Positions 14,367 through 27,649 of a stretch of DNA of 41,953 nucleotides are shown here, piece by piece. The number at the start of each line of letters is the position of its first letter. Within the stretch, counting starts at the first letter, position 1. The notes beneath the pieces are model-generated. The model worked only from the letters and a program-made list of their open reading frames with translations, had not been told where the DNA came from and did no database searches. The position numbers were made by a program, and so were the translations under genes. The stretch comes from a virus. The DNA is taken from the IMG/VR virus record IMGVR_UViG_3300035698_008725, positions 1-41,953 of that record; one strand, given 5' to 3'.

Positions 14367-14593
14367 TACGAAACCGTTCCTACTCCTGTACCTGTTTGCG
14401 CGGCAGCTGACCCCGTGGTAACAACTGTCGTATTTACAAGTGCATTATTCTTTATATAGGTCACAATTGCGCTTGCTAAAAGATCTACGCGCTCTTCAAT
14501 CAAAGCTTTAGTGGTATCGTCCATACCATCAACACTATCTAAAGCAAACGCGGTAAGGATTGCACTCTTCATACCTGTTCCCGTCAACGGCAT
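14366..14593 (-). CDS. Small virion-region protein
   Basis: This 75-residue protein has a short helical core (about 20-50, including TKALIEERVDLLASAIVTYI) followed by a Ser/Thr/Gly/Ala tail. The pattern resembles small phage proteins encoded next to the baseplate spike, but no family can be named. Its start lies inside the last codons of the GIY-YIG gene (10-base overlap) and its stop overlaps the next start. An internal ATG at residue 8 is an alternative start. Confidence 0.45.
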   Translation of the reverse strand: MPLTGTGMKSAILTAFALDSVDGMDDTTKALIEERVDLLASAIVTYIKNNALVNTTVVTTGSAAAQTGTGVGTVS

Positions 14594-15291
14594 TTTGAAT
14601 CTCTCCCCTGTTTCATTCCTTTACTTATTTTCTTCCTTTGGGCCATGGATCGTACTTTACCTTTATTAGCTTGACTAATCTTCCTTTTAGTCTCTTCTAA
14701 TCTTTTCTTACCATACATATGATTCTTCTCACCTCTCATCGCGCTACTAATTTTATCACGAGTTTCAACAGAAACTTCACGATTCTGGTGGGCTTCGCAC
14801 AATTTTTGCTTATGCTCATCAGAAAATTTTCTACCTTTAAATGCAGCGGATATTTTCTGACACGTCTGCATAGAGGATTTCTGCCCTTTTAAGGAATTGC
14901 TAATTTTTTGGCGCGTTTCCGAGGAGGATTTTCTACCTTTAAGTGCACTGCTAATTTTACGTTTAGTTTCTTTAGAAGGTGATGGGCCTTCTCCGCCATC
15001 TGTTAGGTTACAGAGACTTCCTTCTTTCAAGTCTCTTCTACCGATGTACTTAATCCAATAACGTTCCCATCTAAAAGCCCCTTTTTCAGTAAGATTAGTA
15101 TGGAGAAAATGTATCTTGACATTATCACTACCTACTTTATTGATCTTGTTTTTGAGGAAAGAGTTAGTAGTACTTTTACTTAAATGCCCACTTACTTTAT
15201 ATCTACTATCTTTCCCTTTTCCTACATAAAAAGGGACATTATTCTGATCCAAATACATATAAACAAAGTATTTTTTAGATTTAATTTTCAT
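14584..15291 (-). CDS. GIY-YIG homing endonuclease with NUMOD3 repeats (copy 1)
   Basis: The 235-residue product starts with a GIY-YIG-type nuclease domain: VYMYLDQNNVPFYVGKGK (about 10-27), a conserved RWERYWIKYIGR block (about 74-85), and EGSLCNLTDGGEG (about 90-102). Four or more NUMOD3-like DNA-binding repeats follow (KETKRKISSALKGRK, SETRQKISNSLKGQK, ETKRKISQANKGKV). Such free-standing enzymes cut phage DNA at a specific site and spread by repair. Its ATG overlaps the stop of the spike gene (TAATG) and its end overlaps the next start, so it sits in the operon without breaking either gene. It is a close paralogue of the gene at 26738-27472. Confidence 0.85.
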   Translation of the reverse strand: MKIKSKKYFVYMYLDQNNVPFYVGKGKDSRYKVSGHLSKSTTNSFLKNKINKVGSDNVKIHFLHTNLTEKGAFRWERYWIKYIGRRDLKEGSLCNLTDGGEGPSPSKETKRKISSALKGRKSSSETRQKISNSLKGQKSSMQTCQKISAAFKGRKFSDEHKQKLCEAHQNREVSVETRDKISSAMRGEKNHMYGKKRLEETKRKISQANKGKVRSMAQRKKISKGMKQGRDSKCR

Positions 15292-25824: not shown

Positions 25825-26750
25825 TATGATATTTCCGCATCAGAAGTTATCGTTACGGTATCCGTGTACACTTGCTTAACTGCATCCGGCGCCAATTGAT
25901 ATCTGATATCACTTTCCTCGATCCGTACAGTTTCAAATTCTTGGTGCATCAATATACCGCGCCAGCGGCTATCACTCTTATTAACTATTTCCCATACAAC
26001 GCCTTCGTTACGTCCCATCGTACCAATAATAATATCATAATTATTTACGTAGGGTGCATTATACGCTATCCAATGGCGCAGATCCCGTCTTTTTACTCTA
26101 CCAATTTGTTCTACGGGACGTTCTTCGGCAACCATAGGAACTCTTACCAAAACAGTATTAGTAGGGTTATATTTGGTAGCCAGCGTAGTATACTGCGTGA
26201 ACGCCGCAGGATAACCAGTACCTCTACAAAGCGGACATTCTCTATTGGGATATCCTGTTGATCTATCTACACAGGAACAAATATTCCGATACGAATAGGA
26301 TACATTACCTGGAGTAAAGTCTCCATTGAACCACACTTTAACGGCGCCTGCCGTGTCGGAATCGACACCCGTTACGTTCTCTAATGAATATTCGGTATCA
26401 TAAACTAAAGAGTCCTTATCAAATACTCTTGTGAGTTCAGTAGCATCGTTAAAGAGTCGAAATGCGCCATCTTGTGTCCGAGAATTGGGGTGAACATCTT
26501 CACCATCACCCGGTTCCCAAATATATGCAGAGTATTGCGTAGAAGTAGTTTCCCACGAAGTGATAGACTTACTGCGAAATTCCCCTCGGTTTTCGCGCTG
26601 AAACACAAAGAACGGCTCTCCCCCCACGCGTATCTGCAGGGTGTGAGATTCTCGCATGTAGTCCGTAACTTCTGCGTCAAGCCCTAAAGAACAGTCGACA
26701 TACAACTCCTCACCACTACTCAAAGGATTTCCTGAATTTACGATCGGCAT
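25824..26750 (-). CDS. Head-tail neck protein with CxC-CxxC zinc motif
   Basis: The 308-residue product has a zinc-binding-like cluster at C158, C160, C172 and C175 (ICSCVDRS and ECPLCRGTGY). After this lies a conserved-looking region NYDIIIGTMGRNEGVVWEIV (about 237-256) followed by WRGILMHQEFETVRIEESDI, a pattern resembling head-tail joining proteins. It ends in the shared motif DTVTITSDAEI. It sits between the connector gene and the tail-completion gene. The function is inferred from position and fold pattern. Its start overlaps the GIY-YIG gene end by 13 bases and its ribosome site (GGAG) lies within that gene. Confidence 0.5.
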   Translation of the reverse strand: MPIVNSGNPLSSGEELYVDCSLGLDAEVTDYMRESHTLQIRVGGEPFFVFQRENRGEFRSKSITSWETTSTQYSAYIWEPGDGEDVHPNSRTQDGAFRLFNDATELTRVFDKDSLVYDTEYSLENVTGVDSDTAGAVKVWFNGDFTPGNVSYSYRNICSCVDRSTGYPNRECPLCRGTGYPAAFTQYTTLATKYNPTNTVLVRVPMVAEERPVEQIGRVKRRDLRHWIAYNAPYVNNYDIIIGTMGRNEGVVWEIVNKSDSRWRGILMHQEFETVRIEESDIRYQLAPDAVKQVYTDTVTITSDAEIS

Positions 26751-27472
26751 TTTCTACGTCTCTCCCATACACGTTTTGCCGATTCCTGCATTTTCCGACA
26801 AGTTTCAGGAGAATGTGCACGTCCTTTCTGCGCCTTGCTCATTTTCTGTTTAGTCTCATCAGAAAATTTCCTTCCTTTATTAGCTCTACTAATCTTTTGT
26901 TTTGTTCCCTCTGTATGGATTTTTCCATACATAGGGTTATTTTTTCCTACAAACTGCCCTCTACTCGTTTTACTTATTTTCCGCCTAGTCTCTTCAGACC
27001 GGGGAATACCCTTATTCCACGGAGACCTACCTAAAACCGTTTCACGCATTTTACATAGTGCATCAGAAGAATAAGTCTTACCTGCGAACGGATTCAGATG
27101 AGTCTTCTGGTAGATTAATTGAGCATTACTTATTTTCTTACGAGTTTCTTCAGAACATTTTCGTCCACTAGAACCATCTCCTCCTTCTGTAAGATTACAG
27201 AGAGATCCTTCTTTTAGATCTCTACGGCCAATGTACTTAATCCAGTACTTCTCCCAACGAAAAGCCGCTTCTTCAGCAAGATTAATATGTAGGAAATGGA
27301 TTTTAATATTATCTACACCTACTTTACGAATCTTATTTTTAAGGAGGCTATTTCTGTGATTAGTACTTAAATGGCCAGAGATATTACTAGCTCTATTATC
27401 TTTCCCTTTTCCAATATAAAAGGGCACACCATCCAAAGTTAAATACATATAGACGTAAAAATCATTCGGCAT
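26738..27472 (-). CDS. GIY-YIG homing endonuclease with NUMOD3 repeats (copy 2)
   Basis: The 244-residue product has the same layout as the gene at 14584-15291: a GIY-YIG-type domain (VYMYLTLDGVPFYIGKGKDN, then RWEKYWIKYIGRRDLKEGSL) and several NUMOD3-like repeats (SEETRKKISNAQ, SEETRRKISKTSRG, DETKQKMSKAQKGRA). The two nuclease domains match at most positions over about 85 residues, so they arose by duplication; the repeat regions differ more. A NUMOD3-style GKNNPMYGK element is visible near residues 150-165. It lies next to the plus-strand tRNA and overlaps the neck gene start by 13 bases, leaving that gene intact. Confidence 0.85.
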   Translation of the reverse strand: MPNDFYVYMYLTLDGVPFYIGKGKDNRASNISGHLSTNHRNSLLKNKIRKVGVDNIKIHFLHINLAEEAAFRWEKYWIKYIGRRDLKEGSLCNLTEGGDGSSGRKCSEETRKKISNAQLIYQKTHLNPFAGKTYSSDALCKMRETVLGRSPWNKGIPRSEETRRKISKTSRGQFVGKNNPMYGKIHTEGTKQKISRANKGRKFSDETKQKMSKAQKGRAHSPETCRKMQESAKRVWERRRKCRS

Positions 27473-27490
27473 TAATATAGTTCCATTTGA
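27471..27490 (-). repeat. 20-base intergenic repeat, copy 1
   Basis: The minus strand reads TCAAATGGAACTATATTAAT and runs into the ATG of the GIY-YIG gene. It matches 36420-36439 at 19 of 20 positions. No other copy was seen. It may be a phage regulatory element or a remnant of a shared insertion. Confidence 0.5.
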
Positions 27491-27547
27491 TTGTTATTCA
27501 ACGACTTACAACGATCCACATCAATTCTATGAACTATTATAGAGTAT

Positions 27548-27631
27548 GCCCCTGTGGTGAAACTGGTAAACACAGCTGCCTGATAAGCAGCCGCCTGGCA
27601 GGGCTTATGGGTTCGAATCCCATCAGGGGCA
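27548..27631 (+). tRNA. Class II tRNA, Leu-like body with GAU (Ile) anticodon
   Basis: All cloverleaf parts are present on the plus strand. The acceptor stem GCCCCTG/CAGGGGC is perfect; the D-arm GTG-AAACTGGTAAA-CAC closely resembles bacterial tRNA-Leu D-arms; and the anticodon stem GCTGC/GCAGC is perfect with loop CTGATAA, giving anticodon GAU. The 15-base variable arm can form GCCT-GGCA-GGGC, and the T-arm is ATGGG-TTCGAAT-CCCAT. The discriminator base is A, and CCA is not encoded. A long variable arm defines class II (Leu, Ser, Tyr), yet GAU reads Ile codons AUU and AUC, and loop bases U36-A37 match t6A-type tRNA-Ile. It is the only plus-strand gene, 18 bases from a head gene. No clear plus-strand promoter is visible. 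Confidence 0.85.
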
Positions 27632-27649
27632 TATTCCATATAATTATCC

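Follow-up and report, generated by a model that had tools for sequence, protein, structure and literature searches.

IMG/VR record IMGVR_UViG_3300035698_008725 is a viral sequence of 41,953 bp, which was analysed over its whole length and is referred to here as the window. It encodes a tailed-phage structural module with nearly all genes on the minus strand. The subject of this analysis is its single transfer RNA (tRNA) gene, which was located by ARAGORN, a check proposed in an earlier note on this DNA, on the plus strand at 27547-27632 and read as Ile (gat). Its product, designated tRNA-GAU, joins a class II body that resembles leucine (Leu) tRNAs to an isoleucine (Ile) anticodon. The gene and its parts are as follows.

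27548-27631, plus strand: class II tRNA gene, anticodon GAU, body of Leu type (ARAGORN, Rfam RF00005, isotype profiles)
27557-27573, plus strand: Leu-type D arm, 3-bp stem GTG/CAC and 11-nt loop with A14, A15, G18G19 and A20a (sequence, 19-mer matches, Leu determinants)
27575-27591, plus strand: anticodon arm GCTGC-CTGATAA-GCAGC, with U36-A37-A38 in the loop (sequence, loop comparison)
27592-27606, plus strand: long class II variable region of 15 nt, stem GCCT/GGGC, loop GGCA, then TT (sequence, ARAGORN structure)
27631, plus strand: discriminator A73, common to Leu and Ile identity; CCA is not encoded (sequence, identity review)

Structure of tRNA-GAU

The full Rfam model RF00005 matches positions 27548-27631 with 62.5 bits (gathering score 29; E 2.4e-11). 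Read directly from the sequence, the acceptor stem GCCCCTG/CAGGGGC forms seven of seven Watson-Crick pairs, the anticodon stem GCTGC/GCAGC five of five and the T arm ATGGG-TTCGAAT-CCCAT likewise five of five. The 11-nt D loop is AAACTGGTAAA, the anticodon GAU occupies 27582-27584, and U48 is able to pair with A15. In the variable region, C-GCCT-GGCA-GGGC-TT, four pairs are formed, one of which is U-G. No cloverleaf pair is broken, and the variable region exceeds the 10 nt, folded into a stem, that mark a class II tRNA. The perfect cloverleaf described in the earlier note is thus borne out for the cloverleaf pairs, as are its long paired variable arm, A73, and the loop CTGATAA with GAU and U36-A37. 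A free single-strand minimum-energy fold kept the acceptor, anticodon and variable arms and lost the D and T arms, a loss that is common in such folds of unmodified tRNAs. These data confirm that tRNA-GAU is an intact class II cloverleaf and that the conflict between its body and its anticodon is real.

The body is of leucine type

Isotype was assessed with home-made sequence profiles, built from the tRNAs of fetched phage loci. tRNA-GAU scored 56.8 bits with the Leu profile, 21.8 with Ile and 17.7 with serine (Ser). Masking the anticodon widened the gap between Leu and Ile (52.5 versus 10.7 bits), and when Leu tRNAs with the same D arm were left out of the profile the Leu score was still 50.1 bits, or 45.7 with the anticodon masked. 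Escherichia coli tRNA-Leu(UAA) and tRNA-Ile1, used as controls, were sorted correctly; the Ile profile gave 51.0 bits for the Ile1 control against the 21.8 of tRNA-GAU. The comparison of the body with Leu and Ile models that the earlier note had called for, made here with sequence profiles, therefore gave 50-57 bits for Leu against 22 for Ile, and tRNA-GAU is not an ordinary Ile type.

The D arm points in the same direction. The 19-mer TGGTGAAACTGGTAAACAC has exact matches in 79 viral contigs, mostly within tRNA-Leu genes, in agreement with the Leu-like D arm reported previously. ARAGORN tRNAs with this 19-mer carry Leu anticodons in 50 cases (40 UAA, 5 UAG, 4 CAA, 1 GAG), and the window tRNA is the only one with GAU. 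Its nearest bodies are phage tRNA-Leu(CAA) genes (L072, L074 and L083), which are identical to it over the first 28 nt, and when the tRNA was searched on its own by blastn, the phage matches covering it best were tRNA-Leu genes with 71-76 % identity. Phage tRNA-Leu(CAA/UAA) with TGGTGAAACTGGTAAACAC thus share the same body; the three nearest, however, have Leu anticodons and lie inside tRNA clusters, whereas the window tRNA is a lone gene. Several other phage tRNA-Leu (L371 (G001), L368 (G515), L035, L064, L087 and L031) have Leu-type D arms with variable loops shortened to 4-5 nt.

In E. coli the Leu determinants are A73, A15-U48, G18G19, A20a and contacts between the D and T loops (PMC9976931). 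Every one of these that was checked, including the D/T-loop partners, is present in tRNA-GAU, together with C2-G71, an antideterminant against seryl-tRNA synthetase. Compared with bacterial tRNA-Leu as a group, tRNA-GAU has the body features and departs in the anticodon, which is GAU instead of one reading UUR or CUN. A Leu-type body is therefore supported, as judged from sequence.

Isoleucine features of the loop and the body

In the sample, CTGATAA is carried by 6 of 15 class I Ile-GAU tRNAs, more than any other loop. CTTAAAA, the loop most frequent in class II Leu tRNAs (33 tRNAs), differs from it at positions 34 and 36 only, and CTGATAA may have arisen either by a pair of point mutations in the anticodon or by transfer of an Ile anticodon arm. 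The major Ile determinants GAU, A37/A38 and A73 and the minor determinant C4-G69 are found in tRNA-GAU. Other minor determinants are not of the Ile kind: G-C stands at 12:23, U-A at 29:41 and C at position 16, where Ile tRNAs have U12:23, C29-G41 and G16. Compared with bacterial tRNA-Ile(GAU), tRNA-GAU accordingly shares the anticodon, A37/A38 and A73, but not the class I body or these three positions.

Codon usage and the genetic code

AUU and AUC (AUY) make up 631 of 13,004 codons in 34 window genes, or 48.5 per 1000, and AUU is the commonest Ile codon of the phage. Codons of the window were aligned with those of relatives at ≥50 % identity. Window ATT and ATC corresponded to Ile in 71 % and 73 % of cases (72 % overall) and to Leu in 5 % each, while the reverse comparison, which served as control, gave 9 % and 10 % Leu; the share of AUY aligned with Leu is thus no higher than in the control. 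Reassignment of AUY to Leu is rejected because relatives carry Ile at these positions. The interpretation in the earlier note, if taken in the strong sense that AUY means Leu, is contradicted: the code of the window phage is unchanged and AUY is Ile.

Genomic setting

The neighbourhood of the tRNA gene comprises the following features.

26738-27472, minus strand: gene for a free-standing GIY-YIG/NUMOD3 homing endonuclease, divergently oriented to the tRNA gene at a distance of 75 bp (phrog_314, E 3e-33; NUMOD3, E 2.3e-26)
27473-27547: A+T-rich spacer of 75 bp (28 % GC) between the endonuclease start and the tRNA, the sole room for a plus-strand promoter (sequence)
26751-27649: insertion hotspot between two conserved minus-strand genes (comparison with six relatives)

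The structural module includes a major capsid protein (phrog_2522, E 5e-52), a baseplate wedge protein (phrog_6, E 1.5e-39) and a weak tail-sheath match. The window is likely a fragment of a jumbo phage, because the closest named capsid protein is that of Bacillus phage G (38 % identity). A blastn search with the locus matched no isolate phage.

Relatives sharing both flanking minus-strand genes have capsid proteins 84-95 % identical to that of the window. In four of them (L002, L003, L004 and L006) the hotspot spans just 20-30 bp or so. In L007 it contains a GIY-YIG/NUMOD3 endonuclease alone (matching NUMOD3, and GIY-YIG weakly), with 26 bp from the upstream stop to the endonuclease start against 177 bp, including the tRNA, in the window, and L005 carries a fragment of NUMOD3 along with a further open reading frame. 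The tRNA occurs at the hotspot in the window only and is absent from the site in all six relatives. This variation among the relatives marks the site as an insertion hotspot, in which the endonuclease can occur apart from the tRNA.

A wider survey bears on joint inheritance of the two genes as well. Among 80 loci that code for related endonucleases, a tRNA lies within 3 kb in two, one of which (L282) has a class II tRNA-Leu(UAA) 1.45 kb away. L282 lies on contig G515, which shares its metagenome of origin with L005 and L007. The tRNA cluster of G515, which includes class I Ile-GAU and Ile-UAU, runs colinear with the cluster in the sister phage G001 (Met-Pro-Leu-Trp ... Arg-Lys-Asn). G515 gave no capsid match, and its putative kinship with the window is drawn from cluster order and the shared endonuclease. 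A tRNA cluster of the window phage itself, if there is one, lies outside the fragment. The window holds a second GIY-YIG/NUMOD3 endonuclease gene (14584-15291, minus strand), 52 % identical to that of L282.

The neighbouring homing endonuclease had been regarded in the earlier note as adding to the oddity of the tRNA. The adjacency is real, but it is less odd than it was made out to be, given the hotspot and the association of an endonuclease with tRNA genes documented in phages for SegB (PMC13096335). As with SegB, a homing endonuclease gene adjoins a phage tRNA; unlike in the SegB pairs, the two genes of the window are divergent, a relative has the endonuclease alone, and there is no sign that they move as a unit.

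No sigma-70-like promoter was found on the plus strand of the 75-bp spacer upstream of the tRNA, although phage promoters may deviate from sigma-70; an A+T-rich TATTAT stands directly upstream of the tRNA gene.

Occurrence of class II tRNAs with unusual anticodons

Viral contigs and genomes were scanned with patterns covering Leu-type D arms with GGTANACRC and the T arm GGTTCRANTC, so that the counts are lower bounds. With these patterns tRNA-GAU was the sole viral class II GAU tRNA of its type among 2.9 million contigs, and broader scans of viral contigs revealed no second one. A first scan, for a Leu D arm with CTGATAA, had returned 14 viral contigs. Only the matches in L027 and L031 overlapped real Ile-GAU tRNAs, which have a Leu-like 3-bp D stem and a short variable loop and were rejected as class II cases; in the other contigs no tRNA was present at the matched spot.

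Four class II tRNAs came out of the scan of 84,980 genomes; three have GAU, and ARAGORN reads the fourth as UAC. The GAU cases are from metagenome-assembled genomes (MAGs): a Microscillaceae MAG (A73), which also has Leu UAA, UAG, CAA and GAG, a Woesearchaeota MAG (G73) and a MAG labelled 'bacterium' (G73). Within the three clades the pattern was found in 1 of 15, 1 of 288 and 1 of 200 genomes, each alone and without a conserved lineage. The class II GAU tRNA is thus sporadic, not conserved. The loci of these cellular tRNAs are L170, L172 and L173, G73 being that of L173 (Woesearchaeota) and L172; the latter, CSMAG_44, is titled 'bacterium' and has archaeal-looking tRNA-Leu genes. In Streptococcus oralis a class II tRNA (L171:1200-1288), with a loop that can be read as UAC or GAU, adjoins a D-Ala-D-Ala ligase gene and a serine recombinase.

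The anticodon GTT (Asn) is combined with the Leu-like D arm of tRNA-GAU in class II tRNAs that stand as lone genes in L039, L040, L046, L054, L060, L067, L068, L069, L082, L089, L090 and L101; in L058 and L061 the anticodon of the same class II Asn-type tRNA is called att. The GTT tRNAs have an encoded CCA and G73, which fits Asn (or Ser) and not Leu identity, and recur nearly identical across several viral contigs; two that were searched had no close match in isolate phages. In L109, a viral contig of 353 kb, Cys, Met and Pro anticodons occur on class II-like tRNAs. No biochemical tests of phage tRNAs that pair a class II body with an anticodon other than Leu, Ser or Tyr were found in the literature, and no published phage Leu/Ile tRNA chimera was found in the open-access part of it.

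Comparison with known systems

The nev-tRNA-Ile(UAU) of Caenorhabditis accepts Leu alone when charged in vitro and is mature in vivo, where no misincorporation was detected (PMC4300185). Like this tRNA and nev-tRNA-Gly(CCC), tRNA-GAU combines a Leu-type long variable arm and a non-Leu anticodon, and the codon is not reassigned (PMC4300185). Leucylation was shown for the nev-tRNAs and is predicted for the window tRNA. The nev-tRNAs are eukaryotic and nuclear, and UAU reads AUA; the window tRNA, in contrast, is a single-copy phage gene and GAU reads AUY. The combination of a Leu body with an Ile anticodon put forward in the earlier note is consequently upheld by profiles and determinants, but it is not without precedent. 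tRNA-GAU would belong with alloacceptor-shifted, nev-tRNA-like tRNAs.

Allo-tRNAs, Ser-accepting class II tRNAs with many anticodons including Ile UAU (PMC7609411), also have a class II body with a non-cognate anticodon. They are characterized by an 8/4 or 9/3 acceptor branch and Ser identity, however, whereas the window tRNA has a 7/5 branch (7-bp acceptor, 5-bp T stem), A73 and Leu identity features and does not belong to them. In Shigella phage Sf14, 13 unique tRNAs of 26 show unexplained conflicts between anticodon and isotype (PMC12482277).

Proposed origin and charging of tRNA-GAU

The best reading, held with about even confidence, is that tRNA-GAU is a mobile phage tRNA of the Leu-UUR type with an anticodon turned to GAU, which, if expressed, would probably be leucylated for the most part and cause Ile-to-Leu mistranslation at a low level at most, much as with the nematode nev-tRNAs. 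A UUR-type (UAA or CAA) tRNA-Leu gene of a phage may have been carried into the intergenic hotspot that also holds the endonuclease, and its anticodon would then have changed to GAU, an alloacceptor shift that left body and anticodon in disagreement. If tRNA-GAU is transcribed, the leucyl-tRNA synthetase (LeuRS) of the host would probably charge it mainly with Leu, because LeuRS ignores the anticodon and finds its determinants present. Isoleucyl-tRNA synthetase (IleRS) would be the weaker competitor, because 12:23, 29:41 and position 16 are not Ile-type. Leucylated tRNA-GAU would compete with ordinary tRNA-Ile at AUU and AUC, with Leu inserted at a low, tolerated rate; mistranslation is expected to be low-level at most. 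tRNA-GAU would then be a recent or decaying passenger and not a recoding system. A leucylated tRNA-GAU expressed in infection and giving measurable Leu at AUU and AUC, a statistical proteome, perhaps as a member of a wider set of phage tRNAs whose class II bodies bear non-Leu, non-Ser, non-Tyr anticodons, is considered improbable.

Several points weigh against this reading. The isotype profiles are small, home-made and derived from phage tRNAs. All major Ile determinants are there (GAU, U36-A37-A38, A73), so dual or Ile charging is possible, and a highly expressed, efficiently leucylated tRNA-GAU would be expected to carry a cost, AUU being the phage's commonest Ile codon. The data contain no orthologous tRNA from which selection or the direction of change could be gauged. 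Leu charging is nevertheless the better-supported prediction, on sequence grounds, than Ile or dual charging.

An unlikely but substantial alternative is a working Ile tRNA on a class II scaffold, with IleRS reading GAU, N6-threonylcarbamoyladenosine at position 37 (t6A37) and A73 and tolerating the long arm, so that the tRNA supplies the abundant AUU and AUC codons. The major determinants and C4-G69 agree with it, as does the codon demand of the window genes. In addition, class II tRNA-Asn(GTT) with the same Leu-like D arm exist in a dozen viral contigs, and Asn-type G73 replaces Leu-type A73 in 8 of 9 distinct sequences, which suggests that in phages a class II body can be made to suit a synthetase that reads the anticodon. 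On the other hand, three minor Ile determinants are lacking where those of Leu are present, nev-tRNA-Ile took only Leu in vitro (PMC4300185), and the colinear cluster of G515 already holds an ordinary class I Ile-GAU.

It is rather unlikely that tRNA-GAU is an unexpressed passenger or relic, which arrived near the endonuclease as a lone plus-strand gene and has no effect. The neighbouring genes lie on the opposite strand, the upstream spacer offers no sigma-70-like promoter, the six relatives lack the tRNA, and the cellular class II GAU tRNAs are singletons in their clades. However, with all cloverleaf pairs intact and a covariance model score of 62.5 bits, visible decay has not begun, and the TATTAT just upstream and promoters deviating from sigma-70 leave room for transcription. 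Very improbable is a counter-defence tRNA spread with the endonuclease, which would resist or replace host tRNAs cut by a defence system and owe its survival to a class II body that is a poor substrate: a tRNA lies near 2 of 80 endonuclease relatives, L007 has the same-site endonuclease without it, and we know of no defence targeting tRNA-Ile-GAU so as to favour a class II body. That a sequencing or assembly error made GAU from an ordinary Leu anticodon is hardly credible, for although the tRNA is known from one contig without a second copy in the collections, the common UUR-Leu loops need two substitutions (34 and 36), which moreover give the exact standard Ile loop, and one error would not suffice.

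Significance

tRNA-GAU sets up a natural contest between an anticodon-blind LeuRS and an anticodon-reading IleRS, in a bacterial setting where the Leu determinants are well mapped. Should it be leucylated and take part in translation, we would know of no earlier phage tRNA that causes sense-codon ambiguity; if it is isoleucylated, IleRS would be shown to accept class II tRNAs. The case further cautions that phage tRNA isotypes called by the anticodon alone can mislead.
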